From positions 1 through 22,396 of the IMG/VR virus record IMGVR_UViG_3300044729_000812: a DNA stretch of 22,396 bases, one strand, 5' to 3'. The DNA is from a virus. Position numbers and translations under genes: made by a program. This document shows, in pieces, positions 882-19,264 of this stretch. The notes below the pieces were generated by a model that did no database searches, was not told the origin of the DNA, and saw only the letters and a list, made by a program, of their open reading frames with translations. Numbering within the stretch: position 1 is the stretch's first letter; the number at the start of each line of letters is the position of its first letter.

Positions 882-2441
882 CTACTGGGCTTTGAGAGCT
901 GCTACCTCAGCTTCCAGGGTTTCGATGCGGAGCTGCGCTTCCTGGAGAGCTTTGATTGCCATCCACATCATCTGCTGCTCTTTGACACCAAGACGCTCCT
1001 CTTGGGCAGGCTCTGTCTCGGTGGCTTCCTTGGCTTCTTGAAAGACCGTGATCACTTCCGGGCAGCTTTCGGCAACCTGCTGGGCGATGACGCCCAAGTT
1101 CAGGTCAGCATCGTCGGACTGGTCTTTGTAGCGGAAATTGACGATTTCCCAATCTTTCAGGCAGTCCCATGTGCCAGTGGCGAGGCTGATGTCTTTCTTG
1201 GTATTGATGTCCGAGAGGTTAACGTCGTTGGCGCTGTAGTTGGCAAGGCCGCCGTTAGATCTAATAGATGCTCTTAATGCTGATGAATCAGCACAATATA
1301 AAAACTCTGATCCAGTATTATTGGCGGCTGTGCTATAGCGAATAAACAATCCGATGGGCGTTGCATTTGTATTTGTTATTGCAGCGGAAAAGTCTGCTCC
1401 TGTTGCAGTAACTTGAAACATTGTACTGGCACTAGTGCCAGCAATATTCGCCGTGCTGTTGATCCAGACTTGTCCGTTTTCCTTAATCCTCATCCGCTCC
1501 GTCGGGCTGCTCGCTCCGTCGGCGGTAGTGGAGAACACTAGGCGGCCTGGTTTATCCGCCGCTCCAGTGGCCGCATCTGCCACACAATCGATAGTCCCGT
1601 AGAAGGTGCTCGCAGTCGTGTCTTTGAATCGAATAGTTCCGATTGTTGTACCGCTGGCAGGAGACGCACTGTCAAATTGAATGTCAACTGCGCCAGCCCC
1701 GCCACCGCTATTTCCTTGAACCAAAAGTCTTGCTACGTCAGAAGTCGAAGACGTGCCAACTAACAGGCGTCCTGACCCATCAAGTCGAGCTGCTTCGCCG
1801 CCACCAATAAGCCAACGGTGCGCGTTGCCCGTTGAAGAATACGTAGCGTCGTAAGTAACGCCTGACGATTCCTGGGTAATCTGTAAGCGCCGATTAATTC
1901 CTGAGCTGATCTCATAAATTTGTAAACCTACGCCCTGACTACCTTGGATGTCTAATGCGTAGGCGGGACTAGTAGTGCCAATCCCTACCGCTTCTGCTGA
2001 CGCATCAACAAAGAAAAGCGAAGAGTTTGTATCGCCTTCAATGCGGAAGTCGTAATTAGCACCGCCATCGTTAAACACCACCTCGCTGGTCCCCCATTCG
2101 ACGCGCTCGACGCCGTTGGTTGCAATTGCAAGCTGATCAGCGCTTGGGCTATAGATGCCCGTATTCAGGTCCGACGCGAACGCCAAGCCAGGGGCCGAGA
2201 CCGTGCCTGCCTCAATGGTTAGCGTGCCATCCAGCTCTCTCAGCGTGATCCAAGCGTTGTTCGCAGCATTACGGAGCTTCAACAGCCCGGTGCTGGTATC
2301 AGCCCACCACTGGTAGGCATACATGGTTGCTGGCTCTGTCGCGCCGCTGTTCTGGCTGACGATGGCGGCCAGTGCGTTGTTCAGGTCAGAGCGGACAGCA
2401 GCACCAGTGCCGTTCGCGATGACGTAATCGTGTTGAGCCAC
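882..2441 (-). CDS. Tail fibre with C-terminal S74 intramolecular chaperone
   Basis: A 519-residue fibre starting at a GTG (2441), 28 nt after the gpJ stop. The N-terminal region (about 1-130) has repeated short beta motifs such as LNTGIYSPSADQLAIATNG, a pattern common in phage fibres and likely the virion-binding part. The middle (about 130-400) is a Ser/Thr/Gly-rich beta shaft. The last ~115 residues match the endosialidase-type chaperone family (Peptidase S74): SDINTKKDIS with the Ser and Lys of the cleavage site, then LGVIAQQVAE, then a C-terminal coiled coil (AIKALQEAQLRIETLEAEVA). In that family the chaperone drives trimer folding and then cuts itself off before the conserved Ser. The protein probably binds the host surface together with gpJ. 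Confidence 0.9.
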   Translation of the reverse strand: MAQHDYVIANGTGAAVRSDLNNALAAIVSQNSGATEPATMYAYQWWADTSTGLLKLRNAANNAWITLRELDGTLTIEAGTVSAPGLAFASDLNTGIYSPSADQLAIATNGVERVEWGTSEVVFNDGGANYDFRIEGDTNSSLFFVDASAEAVGIGTTSPAYALDIQGSQGVGLQIYEISSGINRRLQITQESSGVTYDATYSSTGNAHRWLIGGGEAARLDGSGRLLVGTSSTSDVARLLVQGNSGGGAGAVDIQFDSASPASGTTIGTIRFKDTTASTFYGTIDCVADAATGAADKPGRLVFSTTADGASSPTERMRIKENGQVWINSTANIAGTSASTMFQVTATGADFSAAITNTNATPIGLFIRYSTAANNTGSEFLYCADSSALRASIRSNGGLANYSANDVNLSDINTKKDISLATGTWDCLKDWEIVNFRYKDQSDDADLNLGVIAQQVAESCPEVITVFQEAKEATETEPAQEERLGVKEQQMMWMAIKALQEAQLRIETLEAEVAALKAQ

Positions 2442-2469: not shown

Positions 2470-5400
2470 TTAAACGCCCTTGCCAAATCCGACTGCACTC
2501 CACAGGAAGTTCCTGTCAACTGCGGTGCCACTACTGTTCCTGAAGGTGACATCAAAGCCTGTGCTGGTCACGTTGGTGACGTTGAAGTAGTCACCTGTTG
2601 CAAGGTTCTGGGCCACAATGCCGACGCTGGGCAGGTAAGCATTGATGCCGCCGAGGCTGGCAGTGCCGGTAAAGAACGCTTTGTCAAACGTGATGGACTT
2701 GGTGCCTGCCGTACTGGCGACCGCTCCAACCGATTGCTCAGTCCTGCGCTGGAACGTTGCCTCATAGCCCAGTTCATCAATCAAGATGTTCTCTGCTGGG
2801 TCATTGCTAGTCAGCTCTGCCTTGAACTGGAAGCCACGGCCAAGGAAAGTGCCATTGACGAACTCCTGCCAGCTTGTCCAGGTTGGCGTGCCGCTTGGGT
2901 TGTCGCTGGTACGCCGCAGGTACAGCTTGCTATTGACCGAATCGACCACACCGCCGTCCCAATCAGACCAGTCATCAACCAAGCCATTACGGCTGTCGAT
3001 CAGGTCGCTAGGGAAAAATCCGCGAGTGACAAAGAACCTAGTCAGGTCAACCGAATACGAAGCGCCGAGGTCCAAGGTTGCATTGAACTCATAAGTGCCT
3101 GTCCCAACCGTGTCACCGATGAAGTCCATCACCGGCAGCAGGTCAAAGTCCACCACGTCATCAATCTCTTCATCCCCGTCAAGGGTGAGGGCGTCATAGT
3201 CCTCGTTGTAGAACACGTCCGTCTTGTTGCCCTGGAATGGCGGCACATCCGCATCCTCACGCCTTGACTGCACCAGCAGCCGTCCAAGCGCATCAGGAAA
3301 GTCAACGATGACACTGGTTTCTGCTGCAGACTGTCGGCCGCCGTCATCCTCAAACTTGACCAGGATTTCACCCTCGACCAGCGGCACAATTGCTTCGGTG
3401 TTGTGGCCTGCAATAGCAGGGATCAAGTCAACGCTGTTGCTCCATGTGCCAGTGCCATTCGTAAGGTTGGTGTGCCTGATGTGAACACGGCCAGCCACCT
3501 TCACGTCTAGGTCAACCGTTGCATCCCACCGCAGGCGGGCGCTGTTAGCGCTAATGGCCTCAATCGTCAGGTTCTGAACGTTGCCGGGAGATGCCGTCTT
3601 GCCGATCAGCGCAAACTGTGCCGTTGCGGTGGAGCTGATCCGTCCGGTAAGGCCAATGCTGACGATTTGTACGTACAGCGTGCCAGCACGCAACCCAGTC
3701 AGCCGGATCGACGGTGATGTCGTCTCCAGTTGCCGCCAATTGTCATTGTCAATTTTGTACTGCAACCGATAGTTGACCGCCTTGATGGCGCGGTTGGCAA
3801 CAATCCTGACGGTTGGCTCAATCCAGCTCAGCTCAAAAGCAGTAAGCACGTTGGAGCCGTCAACGTACAGGTGCTCAGTGCCATCAATGCTGCTCGGCGG
3901 ATCAGGTGCAGGTTCAACGATTGGTTCCTGCGGGATGGTGTTCGGATCGGTCAGGCCGCCATCGCCTACATCACGGAACGACAGCTTTAGGTCCGATTCA
4001 ATCGCGGCATAGATGCTGGCGTTATATGACAGCGCCGTGATGCCGTAGATGCCATCTTCACCCTCGGCAACCGTGATGACACGGAACTGCTGCGTTTGCG
4101 TGCCGGTGCTTTGGATAATCCAAATGCTCTGCGGATTAGGAGATTCGCTGAATGCACTGCTAACTGTCACCACACTGCCCGCTAAACCGCTGATGCTGCG
4201 CGTTTCGACCAAGCCCGTAGGCAGCAGCACGCTGATGGTTGGGCTTCCTCCCAAGGTGGGAGCAGAATCAAGCGTTACGGTCGTCGTCGTTGCTGCGCTG
4301 ATCCTGCCGCCCTGCCTGCTACCAGCCTTCATCGGGTCGGCAATGTCAATCACCATTCCAGGCCGCAGGACGATGCCACTATCAAGCGACACCGAAAATG
4401 TGACGGTCTCGGTCAGGTTCTGCTCTGACAGCAACGCCCACTTGCCCAAGCGGTGCGCCTGGCCCTGCGAGTAGCAGCCAATGGCCTTGATGTCCTTATT
4501 GATGATGCCGTATTTAGCAACCGCATCTGCCAGCTCGACATATTCATAGGTGACCTCACCAAGCTGCTGGTAGGTCTGGTATGCAACCGTTGCGGTGGTG
4601 TGCCGTGCCTTCTGTGCGCTGCCGCTGTAGCTGAACAGCCCATCAACGACATTGGCAGGTGTCAACAGGTACTGCGGATCTGCAGGCTTGTCCTGCAACA
4701 CCACCATCGACCCGGCGCCGTAGTAGGCAATGCCACGAAACAGGGCGACAAACTCTTGGATGACGTTGTAGACCTCATCACGGCTGTTGATCAGCATGTT
4801 GCAACTGAACCGTGGCTCCTGACCGCCGCGTCCGTTGCTCACAAGCGTGTTGCAGTATTGGCTGATGGCGAAAAAGTCGTAGCGGTCCAGGCTGCTGGCT
4901 GGAATGCCTGCGCCGTACCGCGTACTGGTCATCAAGTCCCACAAGCACCAAGCTGGGTCTGCGCACCATGTAGCAGCGCCAAACGTGCCGTCCCAGACGC
5001 CTGAGTAGGTAACGCGCCCTGGGTAGGTCGTCGTATCAACGGTGGCGTTGCTGGGTAGCTGCACCTTGATGCCACGCACCAGATACTTACGCGCTGGCAC
5101 CGTGTCAAACTGCCGCGAGTCAAACCGCAGGAAAGTCAGTGCGCTATTGGGATAACGCAGCTTTTCGTCAATGATCTCGGTGTAGCTGCTGAAGTAAGTG
5201 CGGTTTTGCCTGCGGGCGCTGGTCTCATCAGCACTGTTGCGGACAACGCGGATATCAACAGGGAACGCACCCGACAGGCTGACTATATAGTCACGCTGAT
5301 AGCTATTGGTGGTCTTGCCGCTGATGGTGTCATCAAATAGTTTGGTAAAGCCGCCACCGTTGTATTGGATGTAAACGCCAATGCTGACGCTATGGCCGAT

Positions 5401-6279
5401 GATGTCGCCGTCGTCTTCAATGATCTGCAGCGCCGGTAGCTGCACCGTGACGCGCACACGGTCAACATCAGTATCCGTGACGGTACGGGTTACAGATGCA
5501 GCATTGGTGACCTCAACGTTGACGGATTTTTCAGACTGCGTGCCTTCAGTGTTAGGGATGTATGCCTGATTCTGCGTTCCGTTGCGGGTGACAACGGTGT
5601 AGCCAGTGAAGTTATCAATGCCGCTGCTGCTTTGAATCGGTGTGCCGTCCAGGTAGATGCCCTTAACGCCGTTCTCAATGCCTTGGATTTCGCCTTCGCT
5701 GATCAAGTCAAGAACACTGCCGTATTGGACCGATTGCAGCGAGTCATCGGCCTCCGTTGGTACATGCGTCGTGCCGCCACCACCTTTGCCACCGCCACCA
5801 CCGCCACCGCCTGCACCAGCGATCGTGGCGCCAAGGCCAGCGTTGTGGACGCGAATGTTGCCCGCAATGAAGGTGTGCTGGCCTTCAACGGTCAGGTTGT
5901 AAACCGTGCCAGGCTCTAGCGGTTGCTTGCCGATGATGGGCCGCAGGTGCCCTAAGCCGTCAATCAGGCAGTCATCAGGCCCCAGCGTGTCAATGCAAAC
6001 AAACGCATTGAACTGGTTGAGTACCCAGTGATTAGGCGTTGCATCAAGGTGTTTGCCACCCCAGTAGCTGTAACGGGTGATCGGTTCGCTGTCGTGGACA
6101 TGCAGCTTGAGGATCTTGGCAGGCAGGATCTGCCCTTGATCGTCAAAGCTCAGAACGATGTCACCGGGCTTCAGCTCATCAATGCGGCACTGCCCGCCAG
6201 GGATATCGACAAGCGTGTATCCAGGGAAGCAGCCACCACCGCCACCACCACCACCGCCAGCACCTTGGATCTGTGTCAT
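2470..6279 (-). CDS. J: Tail tip host-specificity protein gpJ with N-terminal Hint (intein-like) domain
   Basis: This 1269-residue protein is the lambda gpJ homologue that closes the tail tip and contacts the receptor. Motifs shared with lambda J include VLDLISEGEIQGIENGVKG, SGVWDGTFG, AWCLWDLMTSTRYGAG, GQAHRLGKWALL and EDGIYGITAL. The middle (about 770-980) looks like fibronectin type III repeats, and the last ~85 residues resemble an H-type lectin-like beta domain. Unlike lambda J, it has about 165 extra N-terminal residues: nine Gly, then a Hint domain (17-146) with CFPGYTLV, TPNHWVL and IRVHN motifs, then a second Gly-rich tract to 169. The lambda-like part begins near KGGGGTTHVPTEADDSL, comparable to lambda KGHTPREAKDNL. 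The start at 6279 overlaps the gpI stop as ATGA. Confidence 0.95.
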   Translation of the reverse strand: MTQIQGAGGGGGGGGGCFPGYTLVDIPGGQCRIDELKPGDIVLSFDDQGQILPAKILKLHVHDSEPITRYSYWGGKHLDATPNHWVLNQFNAFVCIDTLGPDDCLIDGLGHLRPIIGKQPLEPGTVYNLTVEGQHTFIAGNIRVHNAGLGATIAGAGGGGGGGGKGGGGTTHVPTEADDSLQSVQYGSVLDLISEGEIQGIENGVKGIYLDGTPIQSSSGIDNFTGYTVVTRNGTQNQAYIPNTEGTQSEKSVNVEVTNAASVTRTVTDTDVDRVRVTVQLPALQIIEDDGDIIGHSVSIGVYIQYNGGGFTKLFDDTISGKTTNSYQRDYIVSLSGAFPVDIRVVRNSADETSARRQNRTYFSSYTEIIDEKLRYPNSALTFLRFDSRQFDTVPARKYLVRGIKVQLPSNATVDTTTYPGRVTYSGVWDGTFGAATWCADPAWCLWDLMTSTRYGAGIPASSLDRYDFFAISQYCNTLVSNGRGGQEPRFSCNMLINSRDEVYNVIQEFVALFRGIAYYGAGSMVVLQDKPADPQYLLTPANVVDGLFSYSGSAQKARHTTATVAYQTYQQLGEVTYEYVELADAVAKYGIINKDIKAIGCYSQGQAHRLGKWALLSEQNLTETVTFSVSLDSGIVLRPGMVIDIADPMKAGSRQGGRISAATTTTVTLDSAPTLGGSPTISVLLPTGLVETRSISGLAGSVVTVSSAFSESPNPQSIWIIQSTGTQTQQFRVITVAEGEDGIYGITALSYNASIYAAIESDLKLSFRDVGDGGLTDPNTIPQEPIVEPAPDPPSSIDGTEHLYVDGSNVLTAFELSWIEPTVRIVANRAIKAVNYRLQYKIDNDNWRQLETTSPSIRLTGLRAGTLYVQIVSIGLTGRISSTATAQFALIGKTASPGNVQNLTIEAISANSARLRWDATVDLDVKVAGRVHIRHTNLTNGTGTWSNSVDLIPAIAGHNTEAIVPLVEGEILVKFEDDGGRQSAAETSVIVDFPDALGRLLVQSRREDADVPPFQGNKTDVFYNEDYDALTLDGDEEIDDVVDFDLLPVMDFIGDTVGTGTYEFNATLDLGASYSVDLTRFFVTRGFFPSDLIDSRNGLVDDWSDWDGGVVDSVNSKLYLRRTSDNPSGTPTWTSWQEFVNGTFLGRGFQFKAELTSNDPAENILIDELGYEATFQRRTEQSVGAVASTAGTKSITFDKAFFTGTASLGGINAYLPSVGIVAQNLATGDYFNVTNVTSTGFDVTFRNSSGTAVDRNFLWSAVGFGKGV
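5842..6231 (-). other. Hint domain (intein-like, BIL-type) inside gpJ
   Basis: This is the coding stretch for gpJ residues 17-146. Block A is C17-F-P-G-Y-T; the TxxH block is T81-P-N-H84; the C-terminal block is YNLTVEGQHTFIAGN ending H145-N146. These are the residues that perform the N-S shift and Asn cyclisation in inteins. At ~130 residues there is no room for a homing endonuclease. The residue after Asn146 is Ala, not Cys, Ser or Thr, so standard splicing should not complete. That pattern is typical of bacterial intein-like (BIL) domains, which mainly cleave. Cleavage would release a 16-residue leader and the Hint domain, leaving gpJ starting AGLGATIAG. The activity is inferred. Confidence 0.88.
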
Positions 6280-14432: not shown

Positions 14433-14834
14433 TCAGTTGCCGTACTTCTTGCTGTAAACAATGTGAACGGCATAGACAAACACCGGGTTGGTGCCAGCCT
14501 GCGTTCCAACTGCACGGACATAACGACGAACGTCGTTGCAGTTGATCGTGATTTTCTGGAGGGCAGCAGCACTATCAGTCACCTGGGTAAAGGTGGCGCC
14601 AGTGATGTCAGCCCAGTCAGAGTTATTGGCTGAATCCTGAAGCTTGACGTTCAGGGTGGGGGTGGTGCCGCTGCCAGCCTCAGAGTCGAGGATAACAATG
14701 GCCTCACCTTCAGCATCATTACCGCTCGACACAGTGCCTTGAAGATCAAAGCCAGTGCCGGTGGCGGTAGTAGTACGAGAATCGGCGCCCAACAGGCTAC
14801 CGAGATAGGTCTTAGACCCCAGGTTGTGGATCAT
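14433..14834 (-). CDS. Unassigned virion structural protein, possible capsid decoration
   Basis: A 133-residue beta-rich protein starting MIHNLGSKTYLGSLLGADSR. Later motifs are TPTLNVKLQDSANNSDWADI and RRYVRAVGTQAGTNPVFVYA. The 'TPTLNVK.Q.S..NS...D.TGA.F' and 'RYVRA' pairing occurs in many phage proteins of unknown role encoded just after the major capsid gene, probably an Ig- or jelly-roll-like fold. A head decoration role is plausible but not shown. An in-frame start at 14900 exists, but ATG 14834 has GGAGAA 8 nt upstream and lies almost at the previous gene's end (23-nt overlap), so I choose 14834. Confidence 0.72.
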   Translation of the reverse strand: MIHNLGSKTYLGSLLGADSRTTTATGTGFDLQGTVSSGNDAEGEAIVILDSEAGSGTTPTLNVKLQDSANNSDWADITGATFTQVTDSAAALQKITINCNDVRRYVRAVGTQAGTNPVFVYAVHIVYSKKYGN

Positions 14835-15057
14835 TGGTCTTTCTCCGTTTGGGAGCGGGTTTGCTTTGAACAGGGAGTGGCTGCTCTTCAGCCGTGACAA
14901 CTACTTCCTGAATAAGTGGGGCAGGAATCGCTTTCTTGATGCCGATCAACAGCAAAGCTGATTTGTGATCGGTTTCGACGATGTCACCAACGGCAACCTG
15001 CTTGAGGTCAACGATGGTTTTACGAAGCATCTGAATGCGCATTGCCTGCCCCAGCAT
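14812..15057 (-). CDS. Small head-region protein after the capsid gene
   Basis: An 81-residue protein starting MLGQAMRIQMLRKTIVDLKQ. The core MLRKTIVD..QVAVGDIVETDHKSALLLIGIKKA resembles the short 'V.G..V.L...DA..LI..GKA' proteins often encoded directly after the major capsid gene, in the region of lambda FI. The C-terminal ~30 residues are Pro/Lys-rich and probably disordered (PLPVQSKPAPKRRKTNDPQP). The start at 15057 is 2 nt after the capsid stop. ATG 15042 has a GGGGCAGG upstream and ATG 15030 fits family lengths, so the true start may be one of these. Role unknown; perhaps a head completion helper. Confidence 0.65.
   Translation of the reverse strand: MLGQAMRIQMLRKTIVDLKQVAVGDIVETDHKSALLLIGIKKAIPAPLIQEVVVTAEEQPLPVQSKPAPKRRKTNDPQPGV
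14841..14846 (-). promoter_or_regulatory. Ribosome binding site deciding a start
   Basis: GGAGAA on the coding strand lies 8 nt from the end of its GGAG core to ATG 14834. It favours that start over the in-frame upstream ATG at 14900, which lies deep inside the preceding gene. Confidence 0.7.
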
Positions 15058-15059
15058 TA

Positions 15060-17705
15060 TCAGGAGATCTTGCAGATGGACTCAGGATGACGGATGGCCA
15101 CGTCATAGTCCTGCATGGCGACCACACGCACGGTGCCAGAAGCGGAACCGGTGTAAGGATCAACCATGATGTCCAGACCGCTCCAGAAGCCGATCATGAT
15201 GTCGCTGAAGTTAGCGAACACCGCAGTATTGTCCGGCATGGAGTTGGACACATAAGCCGGGTAACCATTGATGGTGTTGTCGGCTTCGTAGACGAACTGA
15301 GCAGTGTTGTTCGCCTTTTCAGTGGTCTTCAGAAGACCGCGCAGGGCGGAATTCATCAGATAACCCAGCGAACCCAGCAGAGCGTTATCGGTGCTCAGCG
15401 AGGCTTCAGCGTTCACATAGTCAGTGAACGTGGTGTAACCAGACTCAGTGTTGATGCCGGTGACATTCAGGAAGCCCAGCGGGTACGAACCAGCGCCGAT
15501 ACCGTTGATGGCCTGGTTCTCGACCTCGATAGCGATTTGTTGAGCCAGATCACGACGGATCAGGTTCTCGATATCGATGCTGGACTGAAGCAGCAGACGA
15601 CGGCTGTAGTCGGTCAGAGCACCAATGGTGCGGGGCTGCATGGTCACCTGATCCACGGTGAGTTGCGATTCGTTGATCGAACCGGATTCAGCAACGTGGT
15701 AAGTGGTAGCGCCACCCGATTGACGGGGGATAGCAACCATGCCCTGCAGACCGGTCATCACGTTGGCGCCTGCAGTTTGCAGGACCAGCGCTTTACGCAG
15801 CAGGTCGATGAAGCTTTCGCTCATCAGTTCAGTAGCCACCAGATCGCCACCGCCGGAGGCAGAACCCACGGTCAGGTCACGACGGCCATAACCCAGCACA
15901 TCGGCAGGGATCAGGATGCCACGAGCTTCCTTGCCAGACCTCTGCTGAGCAGCACGGCTGACTTCCAGCTCGAAACCAGCAGCACGCTGAGCTTCTTGGC
16001 TGTTCGGATGGGCCAGTGCGTTGATGGCGCGAATGAAGGAGAAGGAGCGCTTCTCTTTATCACTCATGCCGATCTCGGCATCCTTAGGGTTGATGGGCTT
16101 TTCCTGGACACCCATCTTCTCCAGAAGGGCAGAACGAAGCTCATCCAGGCCACGGGAGTTTGCAATGAACTCCTGAGCCATTTCAAGGTTTTTGGTGCGT
16201 TGGCCAAGGGCCATCATTTCAGCTACCTCTTTCGCCTTGGCCTGAGCGGCCTCAGCGCGGATAGCCTCAACATTGAGGGTTTGATCCACGGTTGTAACTC
16301 CGATGGGTTGACTTGGTACGGCTGAGGCCGTTTCCGTGCCTTCATTATGGGAGAAAGCACGGCCAATGCCTACCGTTTGATCAGCAGGCACGGTGACCAA
16401 GCTAATCTCAAACGGTTGGAAGTTGGTAGCGCGATAAGTCACTGGTGAAGTGGACTCATCGGCCTCCATGGCATTGATCTTGTAACCGAAGCTGACATTC
16501 CGGATGATTCCATCCTTGATCAGCTCCTGCATTTCGCGTCCAAGCTCGTTATTGGCCAGCTTGACCTTGGCATAAGCGCGCTTGTTTTTGATGTAGGCAC
16601 GTTCCACCACACCAACAATTCGATCAGCATCGTGCTGATACAGCAATGGGGCGCCATCGTTCAGGCGGCTGAGATCCATGGACTTGTCATCCATGCTCAG
16701 GACTTCCATGCCGTAATAACGCTCAACAGGCGCTTCGCTGGCAAATGGGAACTCAAGGGTTCGGTCCTGTGCGTCTGCACGGAATTCAGTGCTCAGCGAG
16801 CGTATGAGCGTCTGACCCTCAAACATGCGCAGTGCAGCGATCTTCCGCAGCTCTGAAAAGCGATGGCCAACCAGGGTCTCGGTCTCTTCGTAGTTGCCCT
16901 CTTGACGGCGATAGACGCGAATCAGAGCAGCAGGGTCATCTTCTGAAGCGTTGATGCTGAACGACGAATCAGGAACGCCAAGAACGCCTTCACGCATGAC
17001 GTGCTCGATGCGGCCACGTGCAGTGCCACCACTCGAATCCCATTCAACAAAATCGCCTTCCTTCAGTGCGTCAGGAGCAGCACGCTTTTCACTGCGCTCG
17101 CCAGTGGCTTCCTCAAACATCATTGCTTCAAAGTCGTGATCAGTTAGCCATTCACGTGCTTCAGCAGGGGTGAAACGATCAGCGTCAAAACGAATTGCTT
17201 GCAGCTCAGAAGTGCCATCCTTGATGCCGTAGATCGCATCGATCCCTGCACCAAAATCATCGTTGACGCGACGGATCTCGTCGTACTGATCAGGATCGGT
17301 CAGGCGAGCAGCATGCTCATTGGGGTAAGGACGCCCGTCAATGATCTCAGTCATGGAACGCTCCCGTGCTTTTTTGATGGCTTTGGACTTCATGTTGCTC
17401 CACGATTGACCTGAATCGCCACCCCATGCCGCCCATGCTACGCGACCGGGAGAAGGATAGTCATCTTGATCGGGACGAAATCCTTTGCCCTGCTTGTCAA
17501 CTTCATGACGAGCAAACCATGCCGCCATGGTGATAACGGTATCTGGACTGAGCTCATTGCCGGACAGAATCTGACTGGCGCGGGTGGCAGCAACGTTCGT
17601 CCCACCAGGGCGACCCTCTTTCTTCCATGCGCGATAACGCTGCGCCTCAGTCCTCATGCCTTCAGTGGGCATCAGGTCAATCGTTTTCTCCCCAACTTTG
17701 GCCAT
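15060..17705 (-). CDS. Multidomain prohead protease - major capsid protein fusion
   Basis: One 881-residue frame holds several modules. Residues ~15-115 form a helical module seen before phage proteases (YRAWKKEGRPGG, ARHEVDKQGKGF, RVAWAAWGGDSGQSW). Residues ~118-210 form a second module (YPNEHAARLTDPDQYDEI, LQAIRFDADRFTPAEAREWL). Residues ~212-290 form a Tudor-like DUF2945-type domain (LKEGDFVEWDSSGGTARGRI). Residues ~295-455 are an HK97 prohead protease with its His (LLYQHD) and Ser (NVSFGY). After a Gln/Ala-rich coiled-coil delta-like region (about 470-570) comes the HK97-fold capsid domain (SASGGGDLVATELMSESFID, VTMQPRTIGALTDYSRRLLL). Self-cleavage should free the capsid. The start shares a base with the portal stop (TGATG). 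Confidence 0.92.
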   Translation of the reverse strand: MAKVGEKTIDLMPTEGMRTEAQRYRAWKKEGRPGGTNVAATRASQILSGNELSPDTVITMAAWFARHEVDKQGKGFRPDQDDYPSPGRVAWAAWGGDSGQSWSNMKSKAIKKARERSMTEIIDGRPYPNEHAARLTDPDQYDEIRRVNDDFGAGIDAIYGIKDGTSELQAIRFDADRFTPAEAREWLTDHDFEAMMFEEATGERSEKRAAPDALKEGDFVEWDSSGGTARGRIEHVMREGVLGVPDSSFSINASEDDPAALIRVYRRQEGNYEETETLVGHRFSELRKIAALRMFEGQTLIRSLSTEFRADAQDRTLEFPFASEAPVERYYGMEVLSMDDKSMDLSRLNDGAPLLYQHDADRIVGVVERAYIKNKRAYAKVKLANNELGREMQELIKDGIIRNVSFGYKINAMEADESTSPVTYRATNFQPFEISLVTVPADQTVGIGRAFSHNEGTETASAVPSQPIGVTTVDQTLNVEAIRAEAAQAKAKEVAEMMALGQRTKNLEMAQEFIANSRGLDELRSALLEKMGVQEKPINPKDAEIGMSDKEKRSFSFIRAINALAHPNSQEAQRAAGFELEVSRAAQQRSGKEARGILIPADVLGYGRRDLTVGSASGGGDLVATELMSESFIDLLRKALVLQTAGANVMTGLQGMVAIPRQSGGATTYHVAESGSINESQLTVDQVTMQPRTIGALTDYSRRLLLQSSIDIENLIRRDLAQQIAIEVENQAINGIGAGSYPLGFLNVTGINTESGYTTFTDYVNAEASLSTDNALLGSLGYLMNSALRGLLKTTEKANNTAQFVYEADNTINGYPAYVSNSMPDNTAVFANFSDIMIGFWSGLDIMVDPYTGSASGTVRVVAMQDYDVAIRHPESICKIS

Positions 17706-19264
17706 CAGTCAATGTCCTCCAGCTCAGGTTCCTCTTCATGTTCTACAGGATGTTCTGTCTCAGCAAAAGGGACAGACTGAGCAGTGCCGTTATTTGATAC
17801 CGCCGAAGGATCCGTATCGAGGACAATCCCAAGCTCATCAGCAACTGCCAATTCATGTTGGCGCTGACGCATCTGATCCTCGAAATCACCGCCGTGCAGT
17901 GCAATCACCTGTGACAGCGTCATGATCCCGCTGCGAATCAGCTCTTTGTACGCTGCTGCTTCCTTCTGAGGGTCAACAAACTGCGCAGCCGGAGCAATCC
18001 ATTTCGCCTCCTCGTAGCGTCCGGGATTGCTATCAAACGCAGGTAGGTCAAGCACGCCAGCCATGACTGCCATCTCGAGCCAACGCTCATAGACCTCCTC
18101 ACATAGCGATTCAATCAAATACTGCTGCAGCGTCTTGTAATGCGTGCGGGTTTCGAGCAATTCAAGACGTGAAGAGCTGTAGTTGCTCTGTGAAAAGTCA
18201 CTGCTGACCTGCGTGTAACTACAACCAACCCCAGCAGCCACAGCACGAAGCATCTGCTGCACAAAAGGAGTAAATGCATCGTCAGGCCGGTTGGGCGTGA
18301 AGAACTGCATCTCTTCACCGGGTGCCAGTCGCCGAATGCTGCCTGGTGAAAAGTCGAGGACAGATTCTTGATCAAAGGTTCCATCCTCCATCAACTCCTG
18401 ATCAGGGGTTCTGACAAACGCCATCATGCTGCTGCTTGCGCGGGCGGCAACAATCTCGGATTCCTCGTACCCGCTCAGGTTACGCAGGCGCATGATTGCC
18501 GAAGCAAACGCACTCACACCACGCGTCTGACCAGGGCGCTCGATTGCGTAAAGGTGAATGATGTCTTCGGCAGGGATGCGGATGCGCTTACGGGCCAGCT
18601 TTTGCGCGTAGCTGAACTGATAATCACCGGGGTGATAGTCGAAAAAGTGATACGCAACAGGGCGACCCCACTTGTCAATCTCAATCCCCATCCTGATCTC
18701 ATTGCCGTTTCGAGCGATGTCGTTGTAGTCATCGTCCAGAAGGTCGGATTCAACGATCTCGAGGCCCAGGGGGACACGGCTGCCACCAAAGGGCTGCTTC
18801 ACCAGACGAACAAACACCTCGCCTGATTCCAACATTGCAGTAATACAGAGCCGTTGGATGTCGTACCAGCTCAGCTTTCCGCCGCAATGGCAACGCTTGG
18901 CAGAAGTCCAACGATCAAACTCTTCCTCAATTCGACGATTGATGTCGTCAGCCAGGCGTCCACCACGCTGCATCCTGACCTGTGCCTGCATCCTGATGCC
19001 AGTGCCAACCACGTTGTTTTTGACCGCACGCAGCGCAGCCTTGGCAAAGTCAGAATCACGCACCAATTGACGAGCGCGATTGCGCAACATCCTGATGCTG
19101 CCTCGAATCTCACTGTCAGCAGACGTGGCCTGACTGATCCAATCTGATGTCAGCCGGTTGTTCTGCGCAGCAGCGTACGCACGCTTGAGATACGTGTTCT
19201 TCTCTTGCACTTCCTGCAATTGCTTACGCAACGCATTGGTACGTCCAATTCCGAAGATGGCCAT
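17705..19264 (-). CDS. B: Portal protein, lambda family
   Basis: A 519-residue portal protein, close to lambda gpB (533). Family motifs include MLRNRARQLVRDSDFAKAAL, RAVKNNVVGTG, WYDIQRLCITAMLESGEVFV, HLYAIERPGQTRGVS and SYTQVSSDFSQSNYSSSRLE. Twelve copies form the ring at one head vertex through which DNA enters and leaves and to which the connectors attach. The C-terminus is acidic (EHPVEHEEEPELEDID) and probably disordered. The start overlaps the gpW-like stop by one base, and its stop overlaps the protease-capsid start in the same way, so portal and shell genes are translated as a coupled set. Confidence 0.95.
   Translation of the reverse strand: MAIFGIGRTNALRKQLQEVQEKNTYLKRAYAAAQNNRLTSDWISQATSADSEIRGSIRMLRNRARQLVRDSDFAKAALRAVKNNVVGTGIRMQAQVRMQRGGRLADDINRRIEEEFDRWTSAKRCHCGGKLSWYDIQRLCITAMLESGEVFVRLVKQPFGGSRVPLGLEIVESDLLDDDYNDIARNGNEIRMGIEIDKWGRPVAYHFFDYHPGDYQFSYAQKLARKRIRIPAEDIIHLYAIERPGQTRGVSAFASAIMRLRNLSGYEESEIVAARASSSMMAFVRTPDQELMEDGTFDQESVLDFSPGSIRRLAPGEEMQFFTPNRPDDAFTPFVQQMLRAVAAGVGCSYTQVSSDFSQSNYSSSRLELLETRTHYKTLQQYLIESLCEEVYERWLEMAVMAGVLDLPAFDSNPGRYEEAKWIAPAAQFVDPQKEAAAYKELIRSGIMTLSQVIALHGGDFEDQMRQRQHELAVADELGIVLDTDPSAVSNNGTAQSVPFAETEHPVEHEEEPELEDID

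Follow-up and report, generated by a model that had tools for sequence, protein, structure and literature searches.

A capsid gene on a 22,396-base virus fragment (the window) probably encodes a nested pair of proteins: a minority full-length precursor, in which accessory modules and a prohead protease precede the major capsid protein, and a free delta-capsid protein that would form most of the shell. Fusion of protease and capsid protein is by itself of a known kind; what is new is the family-wide nested start and the exchange of modules ahead of the protease. A literature search of titles and abstract openings that included few subscription papers, together with passages of PMC10276861, PMC5512222, PMC12629253, and PMC6157547, returned no title or abstract opening on internal initiation within a fused protease-capsid gene and likewise none on module exchange in this capsid family.

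The gene is an 881-codon open reading frame (ORF) without interruption that runs on the minus strand from 17705 to 15060; the plus strand of the same interval contains stops. A preliminary description had reported this frame, with its protease and capsid domains, without giving a strand, and the frame proved real, with Pfam and PHROGs in agreement. The ATG of the precursor shares one base with the stop codon of the portal gene (TGATG), and the Shine-Dalgarno (SD) sequence of this full-length start is strong (hybrid energy, -9.3). The parts of the gene and its upstream neighbor are as follows.

17705–19264, minus strand: lambda-family portal gene, directly upstream of the precursor (ORF and Pfam).
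17716–17720, minus strand: Shine-Dalgarno GGAGG of the full-length start, within the end of the portal gene (counted from sequence context).
15060–17705, minus strand: full-length precursor of 881 aa, A-B-Tudor-S78 protease-delta-major capsid protein (ORF and profile searches).
17373–17678, minus strand: module A, residues 10–111, all-helical, with a WGGD motif (phrog_2859 and AlphaFold).
17085–17336, minus strand: module B, about residues 124–207, BRX-like beta/alpha (AlphaFold and fold/profile matches; boundaries approximate).
16830–17069, minus strand: Tudor-like module, residues 213–292 (Hva1_TUDOR PF11160 and AlphaFold).
16365–16655, minus strand: S78 prohead protease domain, residues 351–447 (Pfam).
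16298–16301, minus strand: candidate internal Shine-Dalgarno GGAG, 8 bases ahead of GTG473 (sequence).
16287–16289, minus strand: GTG codon 473, predicted internal start of the free delta-capsid protein (409 aa).
16215–16217, minus strand: ATG codon 497, weaker alternative internal start.
15852–16289, minus strand: putative delta (scaffold-like propeptide) region, residues 473–618, between S78 and the mature capsid protein (end placed by R4C homology).
15063–15851, minus strand: predicted mature HK97-type major capsid protein, residues 619–881 (homology to R4C chain 8gta_A).

Pfam recognized Peptidase_S78 (PF04586) at residues 351–447 (E 8e-13; 49.3 bits against a gathering score of 21) and Phage_capsid (PF05065) at residues 619–880 (E 1.5e-40; 139.8 bits against 24.2), while PHROGs matched residues 300–880 to phrog_617, major head (E 2e-148), and residues 10–111 to phrog_2859, of unassigned function (E 8e-23). 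Three protease residues, H358, S405, and E433, are invariant in all 31 lineages of the family defined below, and we take H358 and S405 to be the catalytic His and Ser. The capsid chain of phage R4C, 8gta_A, matches the capsid part of the window gene (E 4e-38), which suggests that this part forms an HK97-fold shell and that the mature protein would begin at about residue 619. The roughly 290 N-terminal residues, previously called extra modules, are indeed real domains according to domain searches and an AlphaFold model of residues 1–301 (39 sequences; mean pLDDT, 88.5), in which module A is helical, module B mixed beta/alpha, and the Tudor part a beta barrel. The Tudor-like (DUF2945-type) assignment was also borne out, Hva1_TUDOR (PF11160) scoring barely above its Pfam cut-off at residues 217–263 (25.2 versus 24.1 bits) and the best Tudor structural match to the model reaching Z 6.9 (rmsd of 2.1 over 55 residues). 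By precursor protein, the closest isolates are the Synechococcus phages S-CBS1 and S-CBS3, at 49–50% identity.

Relatives of residues 1–306 are encoded in at least 594 IMG/VR stretches found in a first scan, and four further scans added 248 IMG/VR loci. A protease-capsid match was present in 333 of the 336 loci examined and absent from 3; this locus count includes some contigs twice, as returned by separate scans, and 15 loci lie outside it (the window copy L081 and L085 to L098, mostly picked only because they are related to the N-terminal modules). Protease, delta region, and capsid protein occupy a single frame in 309 of the 333, with 23 cut by a contig end and 1 (L221) interrupted in its protease part by an in-frame stop. 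These 24 incomplete loci were excluded from lineage grouping and from the analyses of linker starts, SD sequences, and mRNA structure. The 309 complete loci and the window gave 310 genes, which fell into 31 lineages at 70% identity.

The linker between the protease and the delta region changes fast and has almost no conserved sequence, yet start signals within it are conserved. An in-frame linker ATG occurs in 29 of 31 lineages, against 21.2 ± 2.5 expected from Met content; with the GTG of the window lineage, 30 of 31 have a linker start codon and one (L120) has none. At the locus level, the start is present in 308 of 310, L120 and L121 being the exceptions. Where a linker held several ATGs, the best one was scored, and L120, having no site, was left out of the SD-energy and mRNA-structure comparisons. 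An anti-SD energy of -6 or lower was found at 16 of 39 linker starts versus 38 of 514 other in-frame ATGs in the same genes (Fisher p 5e-8), and an energy of -4 was reached in 20 of 30 lineages, whereas 300 codon shuffles of the genes gave 11.6 on average and never more than 19. Since the shuffled genes reach -4 less often, the linker SD is not merely a by-product of the protein sequence. The linker start also has the best SD of its own gene in 70 of 150 distinct sites (8.1 expected). The mRNA is more open there (median percentile, 0.87) than at 492 other in-frame ATGs (0.56; p 5e-9) or elsewhere in the same linkers (0.40; p 6.5e-9). Because the lineages are related, these p-values are optimistic.

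Within lineages, the linker SD is retained in 67/67, 30/30, 30/30, 10/10, and 8/8 members, and in 36/36 of the window lineage. It persists in the 67 members of the CRP-811 lineage despite 25 different 19-base sites and in the two 30-member lineages (L306 and L332) across 14 different sites each. A linker ATG is present in each of eight isolates that do not belong to the lineage set (ATG189 in R4C and ATG217 in Bas97, for instance), with an energy of -4 or lower in seven: R4C (-9.5; GGAGG), RHph_X2_26 (-8.2), Bas97, Persinger, and PPpW-3 (-6.1 each), Mica (-4.6), and Alexa (-4.3), with Murka at -3.5. RHph_X2_26 is a very distant relative, yet its linker SD is strong. Cyanophage-like lineages mostly lack a linker SD, which was found in 0/16 (L057), 0/3 (L078), 8/52 (L114), and 6/17 (L171) members, and S-CBS1 and S-CBS3 likewise have a linker ATG with no SD ahead of it. 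Starts without an SD are common in cyanobacteria. The ten lineages without an SD were also less structured at the linker start (p 0.005), although among the ten compared, L103 and L078, unlike the others, showed no open mRNA there. An in-frame internal codon with initiation signals, as in a nested start of the lambda C/Nu3 type, was found, and in each of the 30 lineages that have a site, the predicted internal product falls within 409–486 aa.

In the window itself, the internal-start signal is weaker than in other lineages, and GTG is a weaker start codon than ATG. GTG473, preceded by GGAG at a spacing of 8, is present in all 36 members of the window lineage, and all 36 use GGA for the Gly codon within this SD; a GGAG-GTG473 pair as strong arose in 49 of 2,000 codon shuffles, the GTG having been picked after the pattern had been seen. 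Conservation of the GTG was rejected as proof on its own, as 5 of the 27 columns with a conserved Val use GTG throughout in any case. An SD likewise precedes ATG497 in 36 of 36 members, but 849 of 2,000 shuffles yield as much, and this codon was rejected as the favored start. GTG473 is preferred because it is located where other lineages carry ATG. The preliminary description had offered an internal start around residues 480–570 as an alternative; the internal start has become the better supported option, while the favored codon falls just before that range and ATG497, inside it, is the weaker candidate.

We propose that ribosomes starting at the portal-overlapping ATG would make the 881-aa precursor, which, translated next to the portal as a minority product, would take the place of a separate protease. 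Ribosomes starting in the linker (at GTG473 here and at ATG in nearly all relatives) would make the delta-capsid protein of about 409 aa, a putative counterpart of HK97 gp5 that would build most of the shell. Both products are predicted to be made in infected cells and may co-assemble via their common capsid domain; because that domain is shared, the minority full-length subunit would deliver the protease, along with the N-terminal modules, to the prohead interior. The protease would then cut near residue 618, and residues 619–881 would stay in the mature capsid. Use of the internal start, product ratio, co-assembly, and order of cleavage are all parts of the model that we infer from the sequence. 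The HK97 gp5 precursor has 385 aa, to which the predicted internal products are close in size. The deposited R4C capsid chain (268 residues) starts at residue 362 of a 629-aa fusion, and a word search of the main text of the R4C structure paper (PMC10276861) gave no hit for "protease," "cleav-," or "maturation."

Every capsid subunit might instead be made as the full fusion, as the preliminary description considered, each bringing its own protease and modules; these would then act as the scaffold and be cut away. A frame continuous in 309 of 333 loci and the strong SD of the full ORF (-9.3) are in keeping with this, but start signals are present in the linker nearly everywhere, and the prohead would be crowded. 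With a cavity radius of 19–21 nm, after HK97, 415 copies of 472 residues would amount to 21.5 MDa and fill 67–91% of a T=7 cavity, delta regions uncounted; the figure of 415 capsid copies per shell comes from a passage in the R4C structure paper (PMC10276861). A shell made wholly of fusions is therefore not favored, and we regard it as unlikely.

It is also improbable, to a marked degree, that the linker SD and start codon serve as a ribosome pause aiding protease folding, or that the linker Met belongs to a protease site, with no initiation in either case. SD-like sequences inside genes can slow ribosomes, but a pause requires neither a start codon at SD spacing nor an unstructured start region, and a Met in a protease site is at odds with the window lineage, which has Val, never Met, and yet always GTG. 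An assembly or sequencing artifact, for which the in-frame stop of L221 might be cited, is hardly conceivable: frame error was rejected given the 309 loci with an unbroken frame from protease to capsid protein, and the artifact is refuted because isolated phages (S-CBS1, CRP-811, RcCronus, VP882, and R4C) carry the same fusion. Homologues with the modules as separate genes, together with a frame break in the window, had been named beforehand as counterevidence; A and Tudor modules do occur as free neighbors in bacteria, but no homologue shows the fusion to be an error.

The nested pair that we favor has partial counterparts in known systems. In lambda C/Nu3 and herpesvirus UL26/UL26.5, nested in-frame starts yield a protease fusion together with a partner, which in both cases is a scaffold protein, whereas the partner predicted for the window is the capsid protein itself. 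HK97 gp4 and gp5 are a protease and a delta-capsid precursor whose delta region is removed on maturation, but they are separate genes without extra modules, in contrast to the window fusion. R4C, RcCronus, VP882, and PPpW-3 (the NF045541 group) resemble the window in having an S78-delta-HK97-type capsid protein in one frame beside the portal, and each of the four has a linker start codon. No A, B, Tudor, or X module was detected in RcCronus and VP882, the two that were scanned, unlike the window, which scores 155.1 bits against the NF045541 protease/capsid fusion model, below its curated 525. S-CBS1 and S-CBS3 share A-B-S78-delta-capsid in one gene and the linker ATG with the window family but lack the Tudor module and an SD ahead of that ATG. 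The Roseobacter phages CRP-811, CRP-821, and CRP-406 carry the same fusion and a linker ATG with a good SD, with module sets (A-T, A-X-B, and A, respectively) that differ from the A-B-T of the window.

The N-terminal modules are rapidly exchanged parts that are also found on other phage head proteins. In the 279 genes (of 310) that begin within their contig, the layouts were A-B-T (82), A-T (74), none (41), A-B (22), A-X (18), X (13), A (11), A-T-T (6), T (5), and A-X-B (3), with one each of A-T-B, B-T, A-B-X, and A-B-T-T. A single lineage at 70% identity (L228; 56 complete members) holds A-T, A-B-T, A-B, A-X, and A. Module A also occurs in a protease with a separate capsid gene (phiPsal1), in an XkdF-like protein of Limnohabitans DC31 (XkdF assigned by eye) with a Tudor module in the next gene, in halovirus proteins of the portal or Mu gpF-like type, and as a stand-alone protein in PaBG, S-CBS4, and Vibrio phages. 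When the N-terminal model was searched against viral models, the matches included prohead proteases, portals, and XkdF proteins. These modules may serve as a core or scaffold, in contacts with portal or DNA, or as packaged cargo.

Bacterial genomes also carry free A genes, of which 80 loci were examined of 304 found. A Tudor gene lay within 3 kb in 43 of the 80, always on the same strand, upstream in 39 and downstream in 4, and mostly directly adjacent. This conserved pair of small genes, Tudor-like plus A, is seen for instance at 2741–3315 of L377 and 2676–3336 of L364 and in 41 further bacterial loci; Pfam recognized Hva1_TUDOR in three of four bacterial Tudor genes scanned (L377, L372, and L361 but not L364). 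The front of the capsid precursor thus fuses the counterparts of a gene pair that bacteria carry side by side.

Module B resembles the BRX domain, known from plants, through hints that are each weak but mutually consistent. Its score against BRX (PF08381) was 18.2 bits, under the Pfam gathering score of 24.5; 14 of 15 B modules matched the family at E ≤ 1 (best, 8e-5; subthreshold); the module B profile found BRX chains weakly, at E 0.09; and the two best of 995 chains compared with module B were BRX, also weak matches (Z 5.2 and 5.1; rmsd of 2.8 and 3.0 over 51–52 residues). A match of module B to MmeI (E 0.0093) was set aside, as it covers only a short YPNE stretch. A phage relative of the BRX domain would be unexpected. 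The X module was DUF5824-like in 5 of 5 members. The A-B-T and A-B models gave no PDB fold match at E ≤ 0.001, and the module A profile found no solved chain at E ≤ 1, from which novelty of the module A fold does not follow.

Elsewhere in the window, the second gene downstream of the capsid gene (14433–14900, minus strand) has a weak, below-cut-off match to Bbp16 (E 1.6e-4), which we take to be the cement protein of phage BPP-1; its product may therefore be a capsid decoration protein. The J-like tail-tip protein (2470–6279, minus strand) has an intein-like Hint stretch near its N terminus, between two glycine runs, at 28.0 bits against a cut-off of 29.7 (Intein_splicing E 7e-4); splicing is uncertain because the residue after its terminal HN is Ala and not Cys, Ser, or Thr. 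The tail fiber (882–2441, minus strand) ends in a C-terminal Peptidase_S74 chaperone domain, and a 66-base patch of its gene (1485–1550) shares about 95% identity with tail fibers of Synechococcus podoviruses.

The nested start, if used, would be a simple means by which phages with protease-capsid fusions balance protease against shell protein. The family concerned has hundreds of members in environmental samples as well as several in culture, and what is annotated in these phages as the major capsid protein probably conceals two products. More speculatively, and with considerable doubt on our part, the full precursor might act as a loading tag that takes limited copies of any small domain fused ahead of the protease into the prohead, where they would be cut loose and later ejected with the DNA, in which case A, B, Tudor, and X would be swappable, host-derived cargo that passes quickly among closely related capsid genes. 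The swappable modules ahead of the protease are a natural set of prohead-interior domains, and the bacterial Tudor-plus-A gene pair provides a first handle on module function.
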